A DNA stretch of 64,000 nucleotides. It comes from Lactiplantibacillus daoliensis. GTDB taxonomy: Bacteria; Bacillota; Bacilli; Lactobacillales; Lactobacillaceae. Location of the stretch: contig NZ_BJDH01000003.1 of the NCBI RefSeq assembly GCF_005405005.1, positions 124,001-188,000 of the forward strand, given 5' to 3'. A program made the position numbers and the translations under genes. Positions 5,031 to 61,938 of this stretch are shown here, piece after piece (the stretch's first letter is position 1; each line of letters starts with the position of its first letter). The notes beneath the pieces are model-generated. The model searched no databases and was not told where the DNA came from. It saw only the letters and a program-made list of their open reading frames with translations.

Positions 5031-5548
5031 GTAAAGGTTGAAAGACTCAAAGGCAGCACAAATATACCGGTAACTGTTATGTCTAAAGTAGATTCATGCA
5101 AATTTAACGCTCCGTCAGTCAAAATCGGTGTACTGTGGGGGACGGTGCCAGCCAAAGGACGGTCTGGCACCTCAATTCAAAGCCGATAAAACACGTCTTT
5201 GAATTGCCCCGCGAGATTAGTCAGCCAAAAACGCCGACTAATCTTGCCGACACTGCACACCGATTCTGACTGACTCCGCTAAACGTAAATAACTGATCAA
5301 TCACTTCAGACCGCGTTAGTTAGCTGGAGGCTGTTGCTGATAGCATCGGGCGTGCAGGTGGCGTTTGACCGGCGTTCCTTTTGCCGGCCTTACACCACGG
5401 ACGGTCCAGGAGATTTACGGTTTTGGCAAAGCTTCCGGACGAGGTTCAAGACGTTTCTAAGGCTTGAACCGGTCCCTCGTCCGCATGTTATCGGCAACAA
5501 CCGGAAGCGGCAGTATGCGATTAGTTTTTGATTGATTATTAATACAAC
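5031..5548 (+). mobile_element. Structured intergenic element, copy A (right end lost)
   Basis: First of six copies of an element not recognised from known families. It starts with the terminal repeat GTAAAGGTTGAAAG 2 bp after the kdgK stop. In this orientation the order is module I (cloverleaf, 5112-5279), a linker, then module II (5329-5502), whose outer arms pair (GGCTGTTGCTGATAGCAT with ATGTTATCGGCAACAACC). The right terminal repeat is missing; similarity to other copies fades near 5548. The base composition is more GC-rich than the surrounding intergenic DNA. A 65-codon open frame inside it is not a gene. Confidence 0.75.
5112..5279 (-). ncRNA. Candidate cloverleaf RNA (module I), copy A
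   Basis: Outer helix 5114-5136 with 5252-5274 (20 of 23 positions paired), enclosing three hairpins: GGTGCCAG/CTGGCACC, CAATTCAAAG/CTTTGAATTG and AGATTAGTC/GACTAATCT. Strand assignment rests on wobble pairs that exist only when the minus strand is read. Transcription is not shown. Confidence 0.5.
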
Positions 5549-13928: not shown

Positions 13929-14424
13929 CTAAAGATTATAGGTGGAAACTAGTCGATTACGGCCGCTTCCGGTTGTTGCTGATAACATGCGAACGAGGGA
14001 CCGGTTCAAGACTTAGGAACGTCTTGAACCTCGCCCAGAAGCTTTGCTAAAACCGCAAATCTCCCGGACGGTCCGTGGTGTAAGGCCGGCAAAACACGCC
14101 GGTCAAACGCCACCTGCACGTCCGATGCTATCAGCAACAACCTCCAGCTAATCAGTTATTTATGCTTAGTGGGGTTAGTCAAAATCGGTGTGCCGTGTTG
14201 GCAAAATTAGTCGGTGTCCTGGCTGACTAATCTTGCAGAGCAATTTAAAGACGTGTTTTATCGGCTTTGAATTGAAACGCCAGACCGTTCTTTGGCTGGC
14301 GCCGTCCCCCCCACGGCACACCGATTTTGACTGACGGAGCGCTGAATTTGAACAACTTCACTTTAAGATATAACTGTAGCTGGTAATACACCTTATTGAT
14401 GTTTTTGAGCCTTTCTACCTTTAG
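13929..14424 (-). mobile_element. Structured intergenic element, copy B (left end degenerate)
   Basis: Inverted relative to copies A, C and D. Its right terminal repeat CTTTCTACCTTTAG is intact and ends 12 bp from the GH88 terminator. The left boundary is uncertain; homology to copy E is clear from AGGTGGAAACTAGTC onward. Module II comes first (about 13979-14151), then module I (14174-14335). Confidence 0.72.
14174..14335 (+). ncRNA. Candidate cloverleaf RNA (module I), copy B
   Basis: Outer helix 14174-14196 with 14313-14335 is fully paired apart from one T-G wobble. It contains a G-C pair where other copies have a mismatch (GCCGT/ACGGC). The three inner hairpins are present. Confidence 0.5.
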
Positions 14425-17543: not shown

Positions 17544-18092
17544 CTAAGAGGTTGCAAGACTCATAAGCACTACAACTGCAGTAGTACCAACAACCGTTAC
17601 GTTTAAAATAGACTTGCCCGAATTCAGCGCTCCGTCAGGCGGAAGCAGTGTGCTGTGAGGGACGCGCCAGCCAAAGTACGGTCTGACACCTCACTTCAAA
17701 GCCGAAAAACCACGTCTTTGAAGTGCCCCGCAAGATTAGTCAGCTGAAAACGCCGACTAATCTTGCCGACACTGCACACCGCTTCTGCCTGACTCCGCTA
17801 AGAGTAAATAACAGGTTCCTAAAAAAGAATCACTGATTAGCTGAAGGTTGTTACTGATAGCATCGGACGTGCAGGTGGCGTTTGACCGGCGTTTTTTGCC
17901 GGCCTTACACCACGGACGGTCCGGGAGATTTGCGATTTTGGCAAAGCTTCCGGGCGAGGTTCAAGACGTTTCTGAGGCTTGAACCGGTCCCTCGTCCGCA
18001 TGTTATCGGCAACAACCGGAAGTGGCAATTTTTGACAATCTGATTATTGCGGTCGTGTAATAGGACAAGCATTTTTAACTTGCAACCTTTAG
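17544..18092 (+). mobile_element. Structured intergenic element, copy C (complete, 549 bp)
   Basis: Complete copy bounded by terminal inverted repeats CTAAGAGGTTGCAAG and CTTGCAACCTTTAG. It is flanked by TAA on both sides (17541-17543 and 18093-18095), which may be a 3-bp target duplication. It lies between the GPH stop (4 bp away) and the DUF2264 start, within a probable operon. Module I is at 17634-17793 and module II at about 17845-18019. Confidence 0.8.
17634..17793 (-). ncRNA. Candidate cloverleaf RNA (module I), copy C
   Basis: Outer helix 17634-17656 with 17771-17793. Relative to copy A, two T-A pairs have become G-C pairs (CAGTC to CAGGC, and AATC to AAGC), with matching changes on the other arm. 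Hairpin 3 also changed A-T to C-G (CACTTCAAAG/CTTTGAAGTG). This copy reads in the same direction as its flanking genes. Confidence 0.55.
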
Positions 18093-20886: not shown

Positions 20887-22023
20887 ATGCAATACAAATT
20901 AGATGAAAAGACCAAGCAACAATTACAACAGATTTGGCAGCAAGTTGAAACTAAACTGGCGGTTACGAGTGATCGCATTAAAACCAATATGCCATATATT
21001 GCCGTTAAACATCGATATGCTGATATCGGTCATCAGCAATTGACTTGGTGGACTAATGGTTTCTGGGCCGGAATTTTGTGGCAAATGTACCATGCAACCC
21101 AGGAATCAAAATACTTAAAGTACGCGCGTCAGATTGAAACGGACTTGGATCAAGCGTTAGCCCAATTTGATGACTTAGATCATGATGTTGGTTTTGTCTG
21201 GCTCAATGCGGCGGTGGCTGATTACCGAATGACGGCGAATCCTGCCGCTAAGCAGCGGGGACTACGAGCCGCCACGATTTTAGCGGGACGGTATAATCCA
21301 GCCGGTGGTTTTCTAGTGGCTTGGAATGGACCGGAACAGCAAGGCCAAGTCATCGTTGATTGTTTCATGAACCTGTCATTACTTTATTGGGCAAGTGAGG
21401 TCACTAAGGATCCGCGGTTTGCGGCGATAGCTACCCAACATGCGCAAACCGCCACTGCTGCGCTACTACGACCAGATGGTTCGAGTAATCATATTGCGGT
21501 TTTTGATCCGAAGAGCGGGGAGTTGCAGACAACTTTGGGTGGCCAAGGTTACGGTCAAGGTTCCGCTTGGGCACGCGGTCAAGCTTGGGTAATCTATGGG
21601 TTAACGCTGGCATTTTGTCATAATCACCAACCGCAGTATTTGGATCAGGCCAAGCAGGCGGCGAACTTCTTCATTGCGAACGTGGCCCTAAATGATTATG
21701 TTTCGGTGATTGATTTTAGGGCACCGGCAGACCCCGTTTATTATGATACGACTGCGACTGCCATCACAATTTGTGGGCTGCTGGAACTGGTTAAGTGGTT
21801 ACCGGAAGCTGAGGGGCGTTTTTATCTACAGGCGGCTTTGAAGATGTTCATGGCGCTGACGACCAAGTTCTGTGACTTCGATATCGATCACGATGAGTTA
21901 CTGACTAAGGGTTCTGCGAAATACCATCGGGCAACGGATCGTGAGGTTCCTATTATTTATGGCGATGCGTTTTATGTCGAAGCATTATTGCGATTACTAG
22001 ATTTAGATTTATCAATTTATTAG
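20887..22023 (+). CDS. Unsaturated glucuronyl hydrolase, GH88
   Basis: A 378-residue GH88 enzyme with catalytic acids D100 in LDHDVGFVWLNAAV and D158 in VIVDCFMNLSLLYWAS, plus TWWTNGFWAGILWQMYH at 53-69. It is the first gene of a plus-strand unit whose order (GH88, DUF2264, GPH) mirrors the minus-strand GPH-DUF2264-GH88 set. The ribosome site is poor (only TTGGTG upstream), so translation may be weak. Cytosolic. The DHDVGF variant is shared with the mirror copy's DHDNGF, suggesting these two are closest relatives. Confidence 0.92.
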   Translation: MQYKLDEKTKQQLQQIWQQVETKLAVTSDRIKTNMPYIAVKHRYADIGHQQLTWWTNGFWAGILWQMYHATQESKYLKYARQIETDLDQALAQFDDLDHDVGFVWLNAAVADYRMTANPAAKQRGLRAATILAGRYNPAGGFLVAWNGPEQQGQVIVDCFMNLSLLYWASEVTKDPRFAAIATQHAQTATAALLRPDGSSNHIAVFDPKSGELQTTLGGQGYGQGSAWARGQAWVIYGLTLAFCHNHQPQYLDQAKQAANFFIANVALNDYVSVIDFRAPADPVYYDTTATAITICGLLELVKWLPEAEGRFYLQAALKMFMALTTKFCDFDIDHDELLTKGSAKYHRATDREVPIIYGDAFYVEALLRLLDLDLSIY

Positions 22024-25282: not shown

Positions 25283-25306
25283 GTATTTTTGAAAAGGGTG
25301 GTGAGG

Positions 25307-26422
25307 ATGATGACGACAGATTGGGTCGCGCAGTATTTAGAACAATTTATCAAAAAAGTCGCACGCGAAAATGACCGCTTGGCAGGCAAGACGCCTTATA
25401 TTCCATACGATGGCTTTTATAGCGATGTGATGATTGAACGGGGCTATGACTGGTGGGCCAATGGTTTCTGGGGTGGTATTTTATGGCAACTCTTTAATGC
25501 GACCGACCAAGACCAATTTCGTGAAGCAGCCATTATTCAAGAAAAACGATTGGACCGTGCCTTATATGAATTTAAAGATATTCATCATGATGTCGGCTTC
25601 ATGTGGTTACTCACAGCCGTTGCACACTATCAGGTTACTGGGGACGAACAAGCCTATCGGACCGGACTCCACGCGGCTAGTTTGTTGGCTGGCAGGTTTA
25701 ACATCGAAGGTAATTTCTTGGTTTCTTGGAACGATCATCCAGGTTGGGTCATCATTGATAGCATGATGAACATTCAGTTGCTTTATTGGGCCAGTGAGCA
25801 GACTGGTGATCCGCGCTTTGCAAAGCTGGCCACGCGACATGCACAAACGGTGGCGAAGTATTTAGTCCGTCCAGATGGGTCCGTGGGGCATATTGCCAGT
25901 TTTAATCCGGATACTGGCGCGTTTTTGACCCAATTAGCCGGCCAAGGGGTCAGTGCAGAGTCTGCTTGGAGCCGTGGCAATGCTTGGGCCTTATATGGAT
26001 TCGCTGCAACTTATCGGCATACGCGACAACTAGAATTCTTGACCATTGCCAAACGGGTGGCGGATTACTTTATCCAACAATGTCAGCTGACCAATGATAT
26101 TCCATTGGCAGATTTTCGAGCGCCAAAAGTACCACAGATTTTTGATACTAGTGCTGGTATGATTGCGGCGGCTGGTTTATTAGCTTTAGCTGAGCTATTA
26201 CCGAAGTCACAACAGGCGCCATATCGGCAAGCAGCGATTAAAATTATCCAGGCGATTGTTGGTCGTTATGGCAATTGGCAACTCACCGAGGATGGCATTA
26301 TCGGTGGTGGGACGGAGGCCTATTATCGCCCGGCGACCTATGAGGTGCCCTTGATTTACGCCGATTATTTCTTTGGCGAAGCTTTACTGCGATTGAAGGG
26401 GAACGCACTGATTTTATGGTGA
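25307..26422 (+). CDS. Unsaturated glucuronyl hydrolase, GH88
   Basis: A 371-residue GH88 enzyme with D95 in IHHDVGFMWLLTAVAHY and D151 in WVIIDSMMNIQLLYWAS. Two adjacent ATG codons (25307, 25310) follow an AAGGGTGG ribosome site; either could be the start. The DYDWWANGFWGGILWQL region has Ala where the others have Thr (WTNGFW). It starts 25 bp past a terminator and precedes the carbohydrate-binding-like gene, so it may be read at low level from upstream or have its own promoter, which I could not locate. Confidence 0.91.
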   Translation: MMTTDWVAQYLEQFIKKVARENDRLAGKTPYIPYDGFYSDVMIERGYDWWANGFWGGILWQLFNATDQDQFREAAIIQEKRLDRALYEFKDIHHDVGFMWLLTAVAHYQVTGDEQAYRTGLHAASLLAGRFNIEGNFLVSWNDHPGWVIIDSMMNIQLLYWASEQTGDPRFAKLATRHAQTVAKYLVRPDGSVGHIASFNPDTGAFLTQLAGQGVSAESAWSRGNAWALYGFAATYRHTRQLEFLTIAKRVADYFIQQCQLTNDIPLADFRAPKVPQIFDTSAGMIAAAGLLALAELLPKSQQAPYRQAAIKIIQAIVGRYGNWQLTEDGIIGGGTEAYYRPATYEVPLIYADYFFGEALLRLKGNALILW

Positions 26423-29432: not shown

Positions 29433-29850
29433 CAAAGTGTTGAAAGCATAAGAAACATTATCACTACAGTGGTGCCAGTAACCGTTACATCTTAAGTAGA
29501 CTTGTCCAAATTCAACGCTCCGTCAGTCAAAATCGGTGTGCTGTGGGGGACGGCGCCAGCCAAAGGACGGTCTGGCGCCTCAATTCCAAGCCGATAAAAC
29601 ACGTCTTTGAATTGCCCCGCAATATTAGTCGGCCAAGAACCGCCGACTAATATTGCCGACACTGCACACCAATTCTGACTGACTCTGCTAAGCGTAATTA
29701 ACTGATTTACAAAAAAGAGTTACTGATTAGTTGAAGGTTGTTGTCGATAGCATCGGCCGTGATAGTGGTGTAAGACGTTTCTAAGGCTTGATCTGGTCCC
29801 TCGGTCGCATGCTATCAGCAACAACCGGAAGCGGTAACGATTGGCTATTT
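29433..29850 (+). mobile_element. Structured intergenic element, copy D (module II shortened)
   Basis: Begins with the degenerate terminal repeat CAAAGTGTTGAAAG about 10 bp past a terminator and ends close to the stop of the convergent GntR gene, so its right terminal repeat is lost. Module I (29522-29683) is intact. Module II (about 29740-29832) keeps its outer stem but lacks about 100 bp of inner hairpins. Confidence 0.72.
29522..29683 (-). ncRNA. Candidate cloverleaf RNA (module I), copy D
   Basis: Relative to copy A, hairpin 2 changed T-A to C-G (GGCGCCAG/CTGGCGCC) and hairpin 4 changed G-C to T-A (AATATTAGTC/GACTAATATT), each with both arms altered so that pairing is kept. This copy reads in the direction of the GntR gene upstream of it. 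Confidence 0.55.
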
Positions 29851-35064: not shown

Positions 35065-36489
35065 ATGACCGTGCAATTTTTAGCAGATGACTTTTTACTG
35101 GATAGTCCAATGGCCAAAAATTTATTTGAAAATTATGCTAAATCAATGCCAATTATTGATTTTCATTGTCATTTAAATCCGGTAGAAATTTATGAAAATA
35201 AAAATTATCCCAACATCACTAAGATTTGGCTGAACGAAGGCGTTTATGGCGACCATTATAAATGGCGCTTGATGCGAGCGAACGGTGTGCCAGAACGGCT
35301 GATCACGGGTGATGGTGATGATTATGATAAGTTCTTGGCTTGGGCCGAAACGATTGAAAAGTCATTGGGAAATCCGTTGTACGAGTGGACACATTTGGAA
35401 TTGCGGCGCTTTTTTCACATTAATGACCTCTTAAGTCGGAAAACGGCGCCGGATATTTGGTGTCGTGCGAATGAGCTGCTCCAAACGCCAAGATTTAAGC
35501 CACGGAATTTAATCAAAAATTCGAACGTCAAAGTGGTTTGCACGACCGATGATCCAGCTTCGACACTGAAATATCAACAACTTTTAAAGGCTGATGAGGG
35601 CGAAAATGGTTTTCGGACGCTGCCGGCGATGCGACCGGATAAATTGATGCAAATTGACCGGGATGGTTTTGGGCAGTACTTAACTGAATTAGCAACGGTA
35701 TCAGGCCATAAAATTGCCCATTTTAGTGATTTGAAGGTGGCTTTACGGCAACGTTTTGACTACTTTAATGCCCTTGGTGGGCGTTTATCAGACCAGTCGC
35801 TACTGACTTATCAGTTTATCGAAGCAACTGAGCCAGAGCTAGATGCTATTTTGACGAAGGGTCGCCAGAATCAGGCGTTAACTGAACGTGAAATAAATCA
35901 GTATTTAACGATGTTGCTAGAGCAGCTCATGCAACTTAATACGCAATTCGATTGGACGATGCAGTTCCACATTAACTCGGTTCGTGATTTGAATCGGCCG
36001 ATGTTTGAACAACTCGGTCCGGATACTGGTTATGACGCGGTTGGCATGCAAGCGGACATCGTTGGCGAACTGACCAAACTATGTACTCGGATGCAGACAC
36101 AACAGGCGATTCCTAAAACGATCTTTTATTCACTGAATGATAATGACTGGATGCAGTTGGCAACGATGCTGGGGGCTTTTCAAGCCGGTGGTCGTCAACG
36201 ACTGCAATTGGGCGCTAGCTGGTGGTTTAATGACACCGCTGAAGGCATTGAAAAACAGTTGCGAATCTTCGCTCAGACCAGTCTATTACCGAATTTTGTA
36301 GGGATGCTGACGGATTCGCGTAGCTTTTTGTCCTACCCACGCCATGAATATTTCCGGCGGGTTTTATGCCACTTCTATGGTCAATTAGTTGAACAAGGGC
36401 GAGTCCCTAATGACGAAGCCATGTTGGGAAAAGTCGTTCAAGATATTGCTTACAATAATGCCAAAGATTATTTTGGCTTATTAGCTTAA
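35065..36489 (+). CDS. uxaC: Glucuronate/galacturonate isomerase UxaC
   Basis: A 474-residue amidohydrolase-fold enzyme converting D-galacturonate to D-tagaturonate and D-glucuronate to D-fructuronate. Signatures: [19 protein letters not shown] (metal His pair), [35 protein letters not shown]-like segment [30 protein letters not shown] and [23 protein letters not shown]. Length is normal. It ends the uxu/uxa operon; its TAA stop overlaps the first bases of repeat element E, so transcripts probably run into that element. Confidence 0.95.
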
Positions 36490-37034
36490 AGGTTGAAAGT
36501 TAAAAATTTCCGGTCTGCACGACTACGTCAACAATCAGGCGGTGAAAACTAGTCACATACTGCTGTTTCCGGTTATTGCCGATAACATGCGGACGAGGGA
36601 CCGGTTCAAGCCTCAGGAGCGTCTTGACCCTCGCCCGGAAGTTTTGCTAAAACCGCAAATTTCCCGAACCGTCCCGTGGTGTAAGGCCGGCAAAAGACGC
36701 CGGTCAAACGCCACCTGCACGTCCGATGCTATCAGCAACAACCTCCATCTAAGTCAGTGTTTTGAGGGAACAAATCAGTTATTTATGTTTAGCGGAGTCA
36801 GTCAAAATTGGTGTGCAGTGTCGGCAAGCTCAGTCGGCGTTCTTGGCTGACTAAGCTTGCGGGGCAATTCAAAGACGTGTTTTATCGGCTTTGAACTGAG
36901 GTGCCAGACCGTTCTTTGGCTGGTGCCGTCCCCCACAGCACACTGATTTTGACTGACGGAGCGCTGAATTTGGACGAGTCTACTTTTGGTGTGGCAGCTA
37001 CAGTTGTGATGTTTTTGGGCCTTTCAACTTTTAG
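36486..37034 (-). mobile_element. Structured intergenic element, copy E (complete, 549 bp)
   Basis: Complete inverted copy with ends TTAAAGGTTGAAAG and CTTTCAACTTTTAG; exactly the same length as copy C. The left end includes the uxaC stop codon. Module II (about 36572-36747) comes first, then module I (36797-36957). No clear target duplication is seen. A 102-codon open frame inside is not considered a gene. Confidence 0.8.
36797..36957 (+). ncRNA. Candidate cloverleaf RNA (module I), copy E
   Basis: Outer helix 36797-36819 with 36935-36957; its two sequence differences between arms are both G-T wobbles. Hairpin 4 carries an A-T to C-G exchange (GCT/AGC) relative to copy A. This copy is in the sense direction of uxaC, so it would be present in read-through RNA. 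Confidence 0.55.
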
Positions 37035-37158
37035 TTATTAGCTTAGTTAATCGAACAGATTGAGATTTTAACGGATACACAAGCTCCTTTTAGAGATAGA
37101 GAATGATTACGAAAAGTTATTAGTCTATTGGAATTTTTCAAAGAAAGAAGTGTTTTAA
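37035..37158 (+). other. Spacer before GH28
   Basis: AT-rich spacer that must carry any GH28-specific promoter; no confident -35/-10 pair or palindrome is seen. Confidence 0.3.
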
Positions 37159-38454
37159 ATGTTGAAGTTGAGTCAATTTCAGCCCCATGGTGACGGTCAG
37201 ACGTTGGATACCGAAATTTTACAAACGGCGTTAGATCAAGCTGCTCAAACCCGAGAAACTTTGGAAATCGGTGCTGGAACGTATTTAACGGGATCCCTAT
37301 TTATCGCTGCACACACGCAAGTGAAGTTCGAAGCCGGCGCAAAATTAGTTGGTTCCACTGAGTTGGATGATTATCGGATGATTGAAACCCGTATTGCTGG
37401 CGTTGAGACCCAGTGGCCTGCAGCGATTCTCAATGTTTTGTCAGGAACCGATGTTAGCATTAGTGGTCCTGGAGAAATCGATGGCCAAGGTCCGGTCTGG
37501 TGGGAACGCTACTGGGGGACTGATCAGCAAGGTGGGCAGCGTAAGATATACGATGCAAAGAATTTACGCTGGATTGTTGATTACGAAGTTAAACGGCCAC
37601 GAGAAATTCTGCTGTATCAGTCGGATCATTGTGTTGTAAGTGATTTAACGTTACGTCGATCTGGTTTTTGGAATTGTCAGATTACTTATTGTGATCAGAT
37701 TGAGGTTAAAAATTTAATTGTTACCGAAAATAATGGTCCTAGTACGGATGGCATCGACGTGGATTCCTCAACAAATGTTCATATTCATCATTGTGATTTG
37801 AGTTGTGGTGATGACTGTATTGTGGTTAAGTCTGGTCGTGATGGTGATGGTTTGCGGGTCAATCGACCAGCCGAAAAGATTGAGATCGACCATTGTGTGA
37901 TTCATTCTGGTTATGGTGTGACGATTGGGAGTGAAGTTTCGGCTGGCGTCCACGATGTCCATGTGCATGATATGGTGTTTGAAAACACGGACTGTGGTTT
38001 TCGGATGAAGTCATCTGCTGACCGTGGTGGAACTATCAGTAATATCTTGGTAGAACATCTAGAAATGCATAATGTGCAGTTCCCATTTTCATGGCTGATG
38101 AACTGGCATACTCAATATAATAAAAAAACGATGGCGGTCACGCCAGATATGCCGCCGATGTGGGCCGCCGTTGCCGCCCAGATTCCAGTTGAGCAACAAA
38201 AGACGTTAGTGCGTGATATCACGGTTCGTAATGTTGTGGCGACTTTGAGTGCAGATTATGCAAAGGAAGCGCGAGCCTTTGATTTGAAAGCTTTCCAAGA
38301 CAAGCCGATGCAAAACATTACGTTCACGGATTGTCATTTAACTGCGTCCGAGTTCGGTCATCTCATCGCTGTCGAAAATTTATTGATGAATCGGGTCTAC
38401 GTCTCGGTTAAACATGATAACGATCAAGCTTTGGAGAAATTTGATACACGGTAA
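37159..38454 (+). CDS. GH28 family glycosidase (intracellular polygalacturonase-like)
   Basis: A 431-residue right-handed beta-helix enzyme of GH28, which hydrolyses alpha-linked galacturonides. Motifs: STDGIDVDSS (D197; usual NTD), CGDDCIVVKSG (D218/D219), SGYGVTIGSE (251-253; the usual catalytic-region GHG is GYG here) and FRMKSS (282-285; usual RIK). No signal peptide, so it acts on imported oligosaccharides, perhaps as an exo-enzyme or rhamnogalacturonide hydrolase. The His to Tyr change deserves attention since that residue normally supports catalysis. It is a single-gene unit between element E and a terminator. Confidence 0.9.
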   Translation: MLKLSQFQPHGDGQTLDTEILQTALDQAAQTRETLEIGAGTYLTGSLFIAAHTQVKFEAGAKLVGSTELDDYRMIETRIAGVETQWPAAILNVLSGTDVSISGPGEIDGQGPVWWERYWGTDQQGGQRKIYDAKNLRWIVDYEVKRPREILLYQSDHCVVSDLTLRRSGFWNCQITYCDQIEVKNLIVTENNGPSTDGIDVDSSTNVHIHHCDLSCGDDCIVVKSGRDGDGLRVNRPAEKIEIDHCVIHSGYGVTIGSEVSAGVHDVHVHDMVFENTDCGFRMKSSADRGGTISNILVEHLEMHNVQFPFSWLMNWHTQYNKKTMAVTPDMPPMWAAVAAQIPVEQQKTLVRDITVRNVVATLSADYAKEARAFDLKAFQDKPMQNITFTDCHLTASEFGHLIAVENLLMNRVYVSVKHDNDQALEKFDTR

Positions 38455-38549: not shown

Positions 38550-38729
38550 TAAGCTACTGGACTATATCAATAATCAGGCAATAAAAAAGTCGACGATTGC
38601 CGCTTCTGGTTGTTGCTGATAACATGCGGGAGGGACCGGATCAAGCCTGGGAGCTTTACTAGCACCATAAATCTCTTGGGCGTGGTATGAGGCCGGTTAA
38701 ACGCCACCTGCACGTCCGATGTTATCAGC
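38550..38729 (-). mobile_element. Structured intergenic element, copy F (fragment)
   Basis: Degenerate partial copy: left terminal repeat relic TTAAGGGGTGTAAG, then module II with many changes and short deletions, ending within GATGTTATCAGCG. Module I and the right end are missing. Confidence 0.65.
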
Positions 38730-38736
38730 GAGTTCA

Positions 38737-38837
38737 GTTAGTGTTTAACCAAATTAAACACTAACCATTTTAAACACAAGTTGCATTTGGTTAGTTTTCG
38801 TGATAGGTTTTCAGTAATGCAATTGTAAGCGTATACA
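38737..38837 (+). promoter_or_regulatory. Control region of the first LevR-type gene
   Basis: Inverted repeat GTTAGTGTTTA/TAAACACTAAC (38737-38765, 7-nt centre) with a further TAAACACA copy near 38771. The cre box TGTAAGCGTATACA (38824-38837) lies just before the ribosome site. The TGTTTAAA-type motif recurs upstream of the sigma-54 promoters at 41518 and 45471, so it may be the activator's own binding site. Confidence 0.6.
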
Positions 38838-38860: not shown

Positions 38861-41455
38861 TTGGCAACAAATGATACTGCTCAGGAACGAGTACGTAAGG
38901 CTTTAGAAAAAGTGATGACCGAACAAGCAGCCGTGACGACCGGTGAACTGGCTCAAAGTTTAGAATTGAGTCGATCCGTGACTAGTCATTATTTGTCACA
39001 ATTATTGAAGGCTGGTGAAGTCAAAAAAATTGTTGGTAGACCGGTACGTTGGTATCTTGATCAACAACCGATTTCGGTCGCTAAGATGAGACCTTTTCAA
39101 AATTTAGTAGGCGCAACTGGTAGTCAAAAAGCATTAATTGAAAAATGTTTAGCTGCGGTTAATTATCCCGCTGGCGGTCTGAATATGGTTATTACTGGGA
39201 ATAGTGGCGTCGGTAAGACTTTTTTGGCACAAATGATCGGTCAATATGCACGTGAATCTGGTGCCATTGATACAGAGGCTCCTTTTAAAGTGCTAAATTG
39301 TGCTGACTATGCGAATAACCCAGAATTGTTATCATCAATTCTCTTTGGTTATGTTAAAGGCGCCTTTACAGGTGCTCAACAAGATAAGGCAGGTTTGTTA
39401 GCTGAAGCTGATGGGGGCTATCTATTTTTAGATGAAATTCATCGGTTATCAGGTGAAAATCAAGAGAAACTGTTTACCTTTATGGATACCGGTCATTTTC
39501 GGCCGATTGGCGAGAATCAACACGATGTTGCAGCCAAAGTGCGTTTTATTTTTGCGACGACTGAAGATCCTAAGACGGCGTTACTAGATACTTTTACACG
39601 ACGAGTCCCCGTTAGCATTCATATTGAAACTTATGCGGAGCGGCCATTAGACGAGCGCCTAGAGCTGATTACAACTTTATTTAGACAGGAATCTAAAAGA
39701 CTACAGCGTTCATTGGAAGTTATGCCAGAGGTAGCTGCGTATCTCTTAAATTTAAATCCAGAAGGAAATATTGGCACATTGAAAAATCGAATTAAAGTCG
39801 CTTGCGCACGGGCTTATAATCGGGCAACAACGATGGGACTCCAATTGACCTTAGCAGATTTTGATGATGTGAAACTAGCGCGGTCGGATTTCGAAACACT
39901 AGGGGTATTATCGCAGACACCATTAGAGGTCGATTTTAGACAACCATTACTTCCGAATCAACAAATGCAACAGTCTTTTTCAACCGCATTAGTTGAGATA
40001 ATGGCTAGTAACGCTGAGTTTTCTTTATCACAGGTACGCAATCTATTACAAAGTTATGCGCTAATGCAGCCGAGAGCGACCAATTCATATCTGCATGCCG
40101 TTCATGCGGACCTGTTTAAGAAAATTGTTGAGCAACAATTTGGGCTTAAAAACGGCCATTCTTATGAATTGCTATTGTTTGATCTCTATCAACAAAAAAT
40201 CGTTCTCCCTGCTGAAAAAGCGGTGCAATTAAGCCAGTTTGTTGATGGGCATTGTGCCCGCGCTAAGCATGTTGCTGCCAATTTTTATAAACATTTACCA
40301 ATTTTGGAACCAACGAGTCATAAATTGTTAGTTTCGTTATTAGCAATTGGATTAAGCGATATGGTCGATGAATCGATTAGTATGCATTGTTTAATGGTTG
40401 CGCATGGTAGTGCAACTGCGACTAGTATCCAAGCAGTAGTTAATCAGCTTTGTGGGACCTATCTAGTTGATGCGTTAGATATGCCCATTGAAACTTCAGT
40501 TAACGACATTATTGAGCAGAGTCGGCAGGCAATTGCGTCATTTGATACGACCAATGGTTTTGTTCTGATTATTGATATGGGCTCATTAGGCCAACTATAT
40601 CGACAGATCAAAAGTAAATTAACGGGAGATTTGCTCGTTATCAATAACTTAACCACGGTAACCGCTTTAGATACTGCCTTGAAGATTCAGCAGAAAATGC
40701 CATTTAATCAGTTGGCTGAACATGCGAGTGCCGACTATCAAATTTCAACACAGTATTTTGAGGGCTTTTCACAGCAGCCTAATATCGTCATCTCATGTAT
40801 GTCAGGTTTGGGGATTTCCGAACAGTTGCGTGATATTTTACAGACTTATTTATCCCAACAAGTTAGCGTTATTACGATGGATTTTTCGACCTTACAGCAG
40901 AGTGTTGCCGAGAATGATGTGGCTGCCTTTGATGCAACCTTATTAGTGATTACAACGACTAATTTACCGGATAAGTTTGCAATTAAGCATTTGAATATCT
41001 ATGATCTTTTAGATCCGCAAGGTCAGGTACTTCTCAACACTATTTTGACGCCATATCTGGATGCCAAGACCTTTGATCAACTTTATAATCAACTTGTGCG
41101 ATTTCTATCGGTTGAGGGAGTCACAGAACGGCTTTCTTTCTTGAATCCCAATATTATTATTCAAGAGGTCGAGACCGTGATTCTTAAATTTGAAAATTAT
41201 TATCAGGTTAAGTTTGCTGGAAAAATAAAGCTAAATTTATATATGCACATTTCGTTGATGGTAGAACGCTTGATGACAGGGTTGGAATCACAGCGGTCGT
41301 ATTCGATGCCAGTCCCAACAGATTCCAAACAACAGACGTTTTATGAGGTTGCTCATGGCATTTTTAAACCGATCGAATTAAAATACCACATTACGATTGA
41401 TGGCTACGAACTTTCATTGCTGTATGAACTATTTAAAGCCGCACTGACGCTTTAA
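38861..41455 (+). CDS. Sigma-54-dependent PTS operon activator, LevR/ManR type
   Basis: An 864-residue multidomain activator. Order: N-terminal winged helix (18-60), AAA+ domain with Walker A GNSGVGKT (113-120), the sigma-54 contact loop GAFTGA (167-172) and Walker B FLDE (189-192); first PRD (about 370-490); EIIA-Man-like domain with H515 in MVAHGSATATS; EIIB-Gat-like domain with C646 in ISCMSGLG; final PRD with H796 in YMHISLMVERL. PTS phosphorylation of these sites adjusts activity. It starts at TTG, 8 bp after GGGGGGA. It lies just upstream of a sigma-54 promoter and PTS IIA, its probable target. Confidence 0.94.
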   Translation: MATNDTAQERVRKALEKVMTEQAAVTTGELAQSLELSRSVTSHYLSQLLKAGEVKKIVGRPVRWYLDQQPISVAKMRPFQNLVGATGSQKALIEKCLAAVNYPAGGLNMVITGNSGVGKTFLAQMIGQYARESGAIDTEAPFKVLNCADYANNPELLSSILFGYVKGAFTGAQQDKAGLLAEADGGYLFLDEIHRLSGENQEKLFTFMDTGHFRPIGENQHDVAAKVRFIFATTEDPKTALLDTFTRRVPVSIHIETYAERPLDERLELITTLFRQESKRLQRSLEVMPEVAAYLLNLNPEGNIGTLKNRIKVACARAYNRATTMGLQLTLADFDDVKLARSDFETLGVLSQTPLEVDFRQPLLPNQQMQQSFSTALVEIMASNAEFSLSQVRNLLQSYALMQPRATNSYLHAVHADLFKKIVEQQFGLKNGHSYELLLFDLYQQKIVLPAEKAVQLSQFVDGHCARAKHVAANFYKHLPILEPTSHKLLVSLLAIGLSDMVDESISMHCLMVAHGSATATSIQAVVNQLCGTYLVDALDMPIETSVNDIIEQSRQAIASFDTTNGFVLIIDMGSLGQLYRQIKSKLTGDLLVINNLTTVTALDTALKIQQKMPFNQLAEHASADYQISTQYFEGFSQQPNIVISCMSGLGISEQLRDILQTYLSQQVSVITMDFSTLQQSVAENDVAAFDATLLVITTTNLPDKFAIKHLNIYDLLDPQGQVLLNTILTPYLDAKTFDQLYNQLVRFLSVEGVTERLSFLNPNIIIQEVETVILKFENYYQVKFAGKIKLNLYMHISLMVERLMTGLESQRSYSMPVPTDSKQQTFYEVAHGIFKPIELKYHITIDGYELSLLYELFKAALTL

Positions 41456-42022: not shown

Positions 42023-43141
42023 ATGACAGAAGTTGAGATTTGGGCAAAGCAAGTCCTATCACAGTTGGACCTTAAATTGACGGCAGAAGCCCAACGATTA
42101 GGCAATCAGATCCCTTATATTCCAGAGAATGGGCATTATGTGGATATGGGAAAACGGGACATTACTTGGTGGACGAATGGTTTTTGGGCCGGAACGCTAT
42201 GGTTAATGTATCACGCGACGGGTAAATCGCTTTATCGACAGACTGCCGAAGCGAATGAAGCTCGCTTGGATCAGGCATTTGATAAATATACTGGGCTACA
42301 TCATGATGTTGGCTTTATGTGGAATTTATCGGCGGTGGCGGATTATCGACTTACAGGTAATGAGCGGTCAAAGGCCCGAGGATTGCACGCGGCACATTTA
42401 TTGGCAGGACGCTACAATCCTCGTGGCCATTTTATTCGTTCCTGGAATCATGGCAATCCGGGTGGTGTCATCGTTGATAGTATGTTAAATATTCCACTTT
42501 TGTATTGGGCGAGTGAGACATTGAATGATCCACGGCTAACTTATATTGCGGAGGAGCATGCCGACACCGTCATGCAACACGTGGTACGGCCCGATGGTTC
42601 AGTTAATCATATTGTGATTCTTGACCCGGCGACTGGGGCGCTATTGGAGACACCGGGAGGCCAAGGGTATGCCCCAGGGTCAGCTTGGTCTCGAGGACAG
42701 GCTTGGGCATTGTACGGGTTTACTCTAAGTTATGCGCATACCAAAAAGGTGGCCTATTTAGAGACGGCTAAACGGATAGCTGCCTATTTTATAGCGATGG
42801 TTAGTCAACATGGTCACATTTCAATTGTTGATTTTCGTGCACCAGAACAGCCGGAAATTATTGATACCTCTGCTGGTTTGTGTGCAGCCTGTGGTTTGTT
42901 AGAGATTGCTAAGTGGGTGCCAATTCATGAACAGCAATTTTATCGCAAGGCGGCTATCCAGATATTAAAAGCAACCGTTGCTCAGTATACTGATTGGGAC
43001 TTGAAGACGGATGGCATTGTTCAGTGTGGTACTGGGGCATATCATGATCAAACTAATCGCGAAGTGCCCTTAATTTATAGTGATTTTTATTTGGTGGAAG
43101 CCATTGTGCGTCTGCTAGGAAAAGACTTTTTGATTTGGTGA
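42023..43141 (+). CDS. Unsaturated glucuronyl hydrolase, GH88
   Basis: A 372-residue GH88 enzyme with D95 in GLHHDVGFMWNLSAVADY and D152 in GVIVDSMLNIPLLYWAS; TWWTNGFWAGTLWLMYH at 48-64. Closest in landmarks to the copy at 60823, which also belongs to a sigma-54 PTS operon (both have YxGLHHDVGFMW and the ending RLLGKDFLxW). 18 bp after IIA and 13 bp before the GH36 gene, so co-transcribed. Confidence 0.92.
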   Translation: MTEVEIWAKQVLSQLDLKLTAEAQRLGNQIPYIPENGHYVDMGKRDITWWTNGFWAGTLWLMYHATGKSLYRQTAEANEARLDQAFDKYTGLHHDVGFMWNLSAVADYRLTGNERSKARGLHAAHLLAGRYNPRGHFIRSWNHGNPGGVIVDSMLNIPLLYWASETLNDPRLTYIAEEHADTVMQHVVRPDGSVNHIVILDPATGALLETPGGQGYAPGSAWSRGQAWALYGFTLSYAHTKKVAYLETAKRIAAYFIAMVSQHGHISIVDFRAPEQPEIIDTSAGLCAACGLLEIAKWVPIHEQQFYRKAAIQILKATVAQYTDWDLKTDGIVQCGTGAYHDQTNREVPLIYSDFYLVEAIVRLLGKDFLIW

Positions 43142-60822: not shown

Positions 60823-61938
60823 ATGGCAGATTGGACAACAACGACGTTACAACAAATTTATCAAAAGACCATTGCGAGTGTGCAACGATTGGGGCCAAAC
60901 AATATTCCATATATGGCTACGGCAGGTCAGTATCAAACTAATATGGTAGAAACTGATATTACTTGGTGGACGAATGGTTTCTGGGGCGGACTTTTGTGGC
61001 AACTGAATCACTATCAAGCTAATCCAGAATTAGTAACTGCGGCTAAGGAGAATGAAGTCGCTTTGGACCAAGCCTTTCTTAAGTATGAAGGTTTACATCA
61101 TGACGTCGGCTTTATGTGGTTGCCAACCGCGGTAGCTGATTATCGGTTAACTGATGACGATCGTGCTTATTGGCGTGGCCGTCATGCGGCAGACCTGTTA
61201 GCGGGACGTTACAACTTAGCTGGTCATTATTTACGTTCTTGGAACCGTGATCGTGCGGGGTGGGTCATTATTGATTCAATGATCAATATTCAGCTTTTGT
61301 ACTGGGCAAGCGAAGTGACACAAGATCCTAGATATAAGTTAATGGCCAATGAACATGCTAATACCGTCATGCAGCATCATGTTCGTGCGGATGGTTCTGT
61401 CGCCCACATTGTTGTTTTTGATCCGAACACTGGTGCTGAGGTAGAGACCATGGGTGGCCAAGGCTACGGAGTTGGTAGCAGTTGGAGTCGTGGTCAAGCT
61501 TGGGCGATTAACGGTTTTGCTTTAGCGTATCGGCATACCCATAATCTAGCCTATTTGGAAACCGCGAAACGCGTCGCTCATTATTTCTTAGCAAATCTTA
61601 CTGAGACTGACGGCATTCCTGCTGTGGATTTTCGGGCCCCGAAGACACCAGTGATGGTGGATACGTCTGCGGGGGCAATTGCTGCTTGTGGTCTGTTAGA
61701 AATTGCGCAGCACGTCCCAGAAGCGGAGCAAGCCTTATATCAAAACGCTGCTCAAAAAATGTTGAAACAACTCGTTACGCAATATGGCGATTTAAATCCA
61801 GCCCATGATGGCATCTTAACCGGCGCTACTACTGCTTATCATGATAAAGCTGGTCAAAATGTTAATTTGAATTATGGTGATTATTATCTAGTAGAGGGGT
61901 TATTGCGTTTGTTAGGAAAGGACTTTTTATTGTGGTAG
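60823..61938 (+). CDS. Unsaturated glucuronyl hydrolase, GH88
   Basis: A 371-residue GH88 enzyme with D94 in GLHHDVGFMWLPTAVADY and D151 in WVIIDSMINIQLLYWAS; TWWTNGFWGGLLWQLNH at 47-63. Most like the copy at 42023. In the C-terminal part it has GQNVNLNYGDYYLVEG where others have REVPLIYxD. The gene begins 140 bp after IID, past a hairpin, and its stop overlaps the HAD start. Confidence 0.92.
   Translation: MADWTTTTLQQIYQKTIASVQRLGPNNIPYMATAGQYQTNMVETDITWWTNGFWGGLLWQLNHYQANPELVTAAKENEVALDQAFLKYEGLHHDVGFMWLPTAVADYRLTDDDRAYWRGRHAADLLAGRYNLAGHYLRSWNRDRAGWVIIDSMINIQLLYWASEVTQDPRYKLMANEHANTVMQHHVRADGSVAHIVVFDPNTGAEVETMGGQGYGVGSSWSRGQAWAINGFALAYRHTHNLAYLETAKRVAHYFLANLTETDGIPAVDFRAPKTPVMVDTSAGAIAACGLLEIAQHVPEAEQALYQNAAQKMLKQLVTQYGDLNPAHDGILTGATTAYHDKAGQNVNLNYGDYYLVEGLLRLLGKDFLLW

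Follow-up and report, generated by a model that had tools for sequence, protein, structure and literature searches.

REP sequences and REPINs are built on a palindrome of 20-40 bp with a short tag and are moved by a RAYT transposase, and GOLLD and ROOL are ornate large structured RNAs, the former being named after the Lactobacillales. In most cases covariation is regarded as proving that an RNA is functional. The nearest published comparison found for the locus described here is provided by the BOX, RUP and SPRITE repeats of Streptococcus pneumoniae which, as far as the accessible portion of the source goes, are small, interspersed, folded and MITE-like, SPRITE being enriched near the 3' ends of convergent genes and some BOX copies being transcribed (PMC3049150). 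A survey of stem-loop repeats includes Lactobacillus johnsonii, and the word plantarum is absent from it (PMC2267715). An earlier description of the present element family was not found in literature searches, which is no proof of its being unpublished.

The locus lies in a window of 64,000 nucleotides, i.e., the whole stretch of DNA analysed, from Lactiplantibacillus daoliensis, whose draft genome (2.63 Mb, 19 contigs) contains the element in dozens of copies, a DNA search having scored 40 places. Module I, the cloverleaf under study (36789-36968, + strand, 200.6 bits with model R1), could be shown to form the right half of a mobile element of 549 bp that is non-autonomous and of the MITE type (36486-37034), an assignment that rests on the ends of the element. 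Its left terminal inverted repeat is TTAAAGGTTGAAAG (36486-36499, + strand; family form CTAAAGGTTGAAAG), its right one, as read on the + strand, is CTTTCAACTTTTAG (37021-37034, - strand), and both flanks carry the target site duplication TTATTAGC (36478-36485 and 37035-37042, matching at 8/8 bases). After orienting the copies alike, the family is delimited by CTAAAGGTTGAAAG at one end and CTTTCAACCTTTAG at the other. Among the 17 copies with clear ends, out of 33 examined, 12 have an 8-bp target duplication matching in at least 7/8 bases, compared to 2.5% with the flanks re-paired, and at the one site used for an empty-site test (copy L028) the joined flanks align without a break in 11/20 relatives, the alignment to the own genome being split by 558 bp. 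In view of the target duplications and this empty site, the element is mobile in origin. In genome G014, a two-module element with the same ends has TCAAAAAG duplicated on both sides, and a one-module element is flanked by CTAACATT and CTAACATC. Around seemingly unpaired terminal repeats of the own genome, 7 of 12 stretches contain shortened copies or module remnants, and in none of the 12 was a transposase found. One shortened element (L258, 446-780), with TTTCTCAT on both sides, lacks the stretch between the inner parts of the modules, and from another (L259, 402-641) most of both modules is gone.

Since a reading frame of 451 amino acids cannot fit within a 549-bp copy, the element can have no transposase gene of its own; the list of open reading frames gives a frame of 102 amino acids (36542-36850) inside it. 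When 21 genomes of the genus were searched for exact copies of the end sequence, 12 gave matches, with one pair 1565 bp apart on contig C61 of genome G008. This pair delimits an insertion sequence (L290) with a single reading frame between its ends, coding for a 451-aa transposase of the IS4 family (NCBIfam NF049925, E 2.1e-144; Pfam DDE domains were also matched). Its first 18 bases are identical to the consensus of the element family, the 14-bp repeat is present at both of its ends, and cloverleaf modules are absent from it. Proteins of the NF049925 family occur in 7/21 genus genomes, the own one not being among these, and some of the proteins are broken; a search of the own genome, a draft of 19 contigs, gave 0 matches to the insertion sequence. 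Judging from the ends in common and the target duplications, an IS4-family transposase would move the element in trans, and the modules would then be its cargo, as the insertion sequence itself has none. Elsewhere in G014 (C2:537840-538069, L303), two end pieces of an IS4-family transposase lie side by side, and the end sequence is present in an exact copy nearby, an arrangement that suggests derivation from the insertion sequence by internal deletion.

The left half of the element is module II (36566-36747, 203.6 bits with model R2, which matches the + strand; the strand favoured by wobble pairs is -), and both models have a length of 180-181 positions. R1 matches module II on the opposite strand only (13959-14151, 55.7 bits, E 6.3e-14), R2 likewise matches module I on the opposite strand, and the matches listed for the window include none in which a model meets the other module in parallel orientation. 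Each model also matches its own module backwards with a lower score, because each module is itself nearly palindromic. By these matches, the left half is shown at the sequence level to be a cloverleaf homologous to module I in inverted orientation. Besides the copy under study, the window contains four further copies of module I, each next to a module II: 5103-5507 (- strand; module I 5103-5282, module II 5325-5507), 13966-14346 (+ strand; module II 13966-14146, module I 14166-14346), 17623-18022 (- strand; module I 17623-17801, module II 17842-18022) and 29511-29831 (- strand; module I 29511-29691 and a shortened module II, 29732-29831). A fragment of module II without module I lies at 38603-38740 (+ strand, R2 59.7 bits).

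For the analysis of the fold, 74 own-genome copies were reduced to a consensus, which was folded with G-U disallowed; only pairs present on both strands were kept, giving a strand-neutral structure of 67 pairs whose selection cannot by itself favour a strand. The copies were drawn from the best 76 of 125 matches to the module I covariance model. This structure bears out the cloverleaf at 36797-36957 claimed in the preliminary description, in which an outer helix (5' arm 36797-36816, 3' arm 36938-36957) encloses hairpin 2 (36824-36860), hairpin 3 (36865-36898) and hairpin 4 (36900-36927), all on the + strand; the same layout of an outer helix and three hairpins is found in module II. The A.G mismatch of hairpin 3 varies in at most 1.4% of the 74 copies, and the bulged A of hairpin 4 is invariant in them, as is an unpaired A within hairpin 3. 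In the five window copies of module I the 67 pairs amount to 305 Watson-Crick pairs, 18 G-U, 10 A-C, 1 other and 1 gap. As more than one Watson-Crick type occurs at 7 of the pairs, the earlier count of at least six double changes holds, as does that of about 18 wobbles; the A-C mismatches, put at about 4, had been undercounted.

The covariation expected from a larger alignment proved to be strong. In alignment A1 (42 of 45 module I copies from seven genomes, L012, L046 and L057 being left out), 32/61 pairs and 127 cells are double-changed, compared to shuffled means of 14.4 and 29.8 which none of 500 shuffles raised to these values (0/500), and to 9-12 pairs when the partners are slid by 1-3 columns. 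The double-changed pairs include 10/17 in hairpin 2, 4/11 in hairpin 3 and 3/8 in hairpin 4. In the same alignment 96.9% of cells pair, a percentage leaning towards the tested structure, since this is the RNAalifold consensus of the very A1 and A2 alignments. For module II (A2, 45 copies, 44 of them distinct), 20/46 pairs are double-changed at a shuffled mean of 8.9. Element-wide tree counts, for which 49 of the 51 copies with both modules were used, give, on terminal branches, 43 double changes that end in a new Watson-Crick pair versus 3 that end in a non-Watson-Crick state, and rates at paired versus unpaired sites of 0.37 vs 0.78 on internal and 1.91 vs 3.03 on terminal branches. The pairing of both modules has been maintained through compensatory change, and the fold is under more constraint on internal than on terminal branches. 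No curated Rfam family could be assigned to it: in the window no match exceeded the gathering score, and the best for 36480-37045 had an E of 4.8.

With respect to the strand on which the fold is maintained, distinct pair states are close to balanced, with G-U:A-C on the + strand at 49:48 in module I (74 of 76 copies kept by the length filter) and 34:42 in module II (52 of 55), and about even in eight further sets (190 of 267 overlapping matches kept; two sets skipped for having too few copies). The reading that there is no strand preference at all, to which these states had led, was overturned by tree events together with a site-level test. For module I, tree events on the + strand number 155-156:116 in the 74 own copies (site-level p 0.086) and 99:44 in A1 (event-level p 5e-6); for module II they number, also on the + strand, 66:95 in the own copies (95:66 in its own orientation, p 0.047) and 45:62 in A2. 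Pooled over ten sets and counted in module orientation, they come to 470:342 (sign-flip by site, p 0.00025), with 89:39 on internal (p 0.00015) and 381:303 on terminal branches (p 0.0062), and with 250:182 in the own genome (p 0.0098) and 220:160 in the other groups (p 0.0067). Few sets are significant alone; the module II set of xiangfangensis/CALFSK runs in the opposite direction on internal branches (1:6), the counts for fabifermentans are 30:31 on terminal branches, and three enlarged sets combined give 14:10 on internal branches (p 0.54). The same test applied to RNA controls, i.e., RNase P and tmRNA of the genus, gave 56:26, so that the overall ratio of the modules (1.37) is lower than that of the controls (2.15). 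Over the whole element the preferences of the two modules cancel (134 G-U vs 142 A-C on terminal branches of the 49 copies). Two other ways of counting were abandoned: RNAalifold pairs alone are misleading (256:66 versus the even distinct-state counts on the strand-neutral structure), since those pairs which are A-C on the folded strand get dropped, and a split into private and shared variants was given up in view of the recurrence of transitions between copies.

A mutational asymmetry may account for part of the bias, as C>T also exceeds G>A at unpaired sites in module orientation (0.78 per C versus 0.45 per G on internal branches; 2.0-5.0 versus 0.9-2.1 in the enlarged sets). In the arms outside the modules, however, C>T and G>A are similar per site in 30 copies (85/15 C vs 73/15 G, and 56/12 vs 80/18), which argues against a general asymmetry. 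In statistical terms, G-U is better tolerated than A-C on a single strand of each module, the + strand for module I and the - strand for module II; both favoured strands were shown by the same counts to read outwards from the middle of the element, and the preference to be strongest on branches common to several copies. The preference likely belongs to the module and would therefore run in opposite directions in the two halves of one element. The earlier claim of selection on an RNA from one strand is hence upheld in part: module I has the G-U bias in the direction of copy E (18:10 in the five window copies), weaker than claimed, but one RNA through both modules has not been selected, since module II prefers the opposite strand.

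As for genomic placement, 64 of the 76 own-genome copies could be classified by their flanking frames, 29 being convergent, 6 divergent, 14 tandem sense and 15 tandem antisense (convergent versus divergent, p 0.0001); gene 3' ends are favoured by the copies, and orientation is not. The G-U:A-C ratio of sense copies (29:25) equals that of antisense copies (19:14, p 0.83, small numbers), so that the strand read through does not seem to have exerted selection on resident copies. The window also contains what appears from its frames to be a gene island for pectin or uronate use. Four related frames resemble glycosyl hydrolase family 88 (20887-22023, 25289-26422, 42023-43141 and 60823-61938, the fourth below the Pfam cut-off), and they have a family 28 glycosyl hydrolase (37159-38454) and a glucuronate isomerase (35065-36489) in their neighbourhood. 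The frame at 38861-41455 codes for a regulator of 864 amino acids that combines PRD and EIIA-man domains with one for sigma-54 interaction.

A scan of named genomes for the module pattern found at least 109 stretches in Lactiplantibacillus, Levilactobacillus, Furfurilactobacillus rossiae and unclassified Lactobacillus records; the R1 and R2 searches covered 80 of these at least 109 loci, plus the window and the viral locus L227. In two-module loci of Levilactobacillus and Furfurilactobacillus the same inverted order is common, with gaps that vary, and most loci of L. nangangensis have a single module. The module II model matched 15/21 genus genomes, some of them weakly, with at least 128 matches in L. 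fabifermentans (G007), a genome in which no exact match to the end sequence of the element was found. The module copies of L. fabifermentans seem to lie in elements with ends other than CTAAAGG; four of its loci (L145, L181, L125 and L191) hold module copies with a common sharp left boundary at TTGCCGC. The cloverleaf module is old. Plasmids and phages gave no blastn match to the element, and the sole match to the module pattern in a viral collection (L227, IMGVR_UViG_3300020818_000146, 216-404) may be on a contig of bacterial origin.

The reading we tentatively prefer, which falls a little short of being probable, is that of a MITE-type element moved by an IS4-family transposase, each module of which has a strand-specific fold working as RNA in read-through transcripts. 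Within this reading, the strand-specific fold of each module is probably one of RNA. Each module would act as a folded RNA in transcripts reading through from neighbouring genes, and as the modules are inverted, a transcript entering from either side would contain one module in its favoured sense, so that the element would work in either orientation. The folded modules would probably make insertion at gene 3' ends tolerable by way of termination, 3' protection or insulation, and well-folding copies might propagate, with resident copies drifting afterwards. Against read-through selection on resident copies is the equal ratio of sense and antisense copies, where a difference was predicted. The bias below that of the RNA controls, the near-even distinct-state counts and a promoter scan of 36400-37150 that found no sigma-70-like site also weigh against the preferred reading.

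The rival reading that comes next in plausibility, unlikely on balance yet to be taken seriously, places the structure at the level of DNA, the modules being cruciforms or single-stranded DNA hairpins recognised in transposition, replication or repair. The strand preference itself is fitted equally well by single-stranded DNA hairpins, as these would likewise prefer G.T over A.C, and the favoured strands read outwards like the two strands that have their 3' ends at the ends of the element. The mobility of the element and the stronger constraint on internal branches point the same way, as does the negative promoter scan. However, a cruciform with both strands folded would give no strand preference, the insertion sequence with the same ends carries no such modules, and modules also exist in L. 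fabifermentans without an exact match to the terminal repeat.

Somewhat less plausible, as a full account, is a fold without function, where template switching between the arms corrects imperfect hairpins during replication and so generates double changes without selection, a mode of compensatory change that has been described for RNA genes, as far as can be gathered from the available part of that report (PMC8794818). Template switching probably contributes to the double changes: neighbouring ones occur in the same copy 6 times versus 3.0 expected (p 0.038), and single-sided mismatches are common (275 terminal G-U plus A-C in the 49 copies). Yet it predicts no strand preference, in conflict with the pooled 470:342, and leaves the constant bulges and loops as well as the one layout across three genera unexplained. 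That a single + strand RNA runs through the whole element, as first supposed, has become very improbable, for the + strand excess of G-U in module I (99:44 in A1) is set against a - strand excess in both sets of module II, and tandem copies are sense and antisense at 14:15.

Beyond the preferred reading of a MITE-type element with folded, read-through RNA modules, it is conceivable, if rather doubtful, that a cloverleaf RNA family travels as cargo of different MITEs in Lactobacillaceae, often as an inverted pair, forming an orientation-independent mobile RNA part that is under selection in the lineage that propagates but not in resident copies. A mobile DNA element that combines strong covariation with opposite strand preferences in its two halves offers a natural test between selection on RNA, selection on DNA hairpins and correction by template switching, helped by the many copies per genome and the several species. 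Should the RNA reading be true, it would show how the design of a selfish element can let it function whichever way round it lies.

In comparison with known systems, GOLLD and ROOL are likewise large and structured, but no Rfam model matched the element. REP, BIME and REPIN sequences resemble these modules in being palindromes, often in inverted pairs, intergenic and in many copies; at 180-181 model positions, however, the modules are far longer than the 20-40 bp of REPs and cannot be placed among REPs or REPINs, having about 180 bp with four helices between IS4-type ends. BOX, RUP and SPRITE, likened here by description only, share with the element that they are small, folded, MITE-like interspersed repeats, and the available portion of their description (PMC3049150) makes no mention of two homologous cloverleaves in inverted arrangement whose strand preferences are opposite. 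IS4-family MITEs, finally, are like this element short, devoid of a transposase and present in many copies, with target duplications and ends common to an autonomous insertion sequence; unlike them, most of this element consists of two inverted copies of a covarying multi-helix module, and related modules also occur in genomes without an exact match to its terminal repeat.
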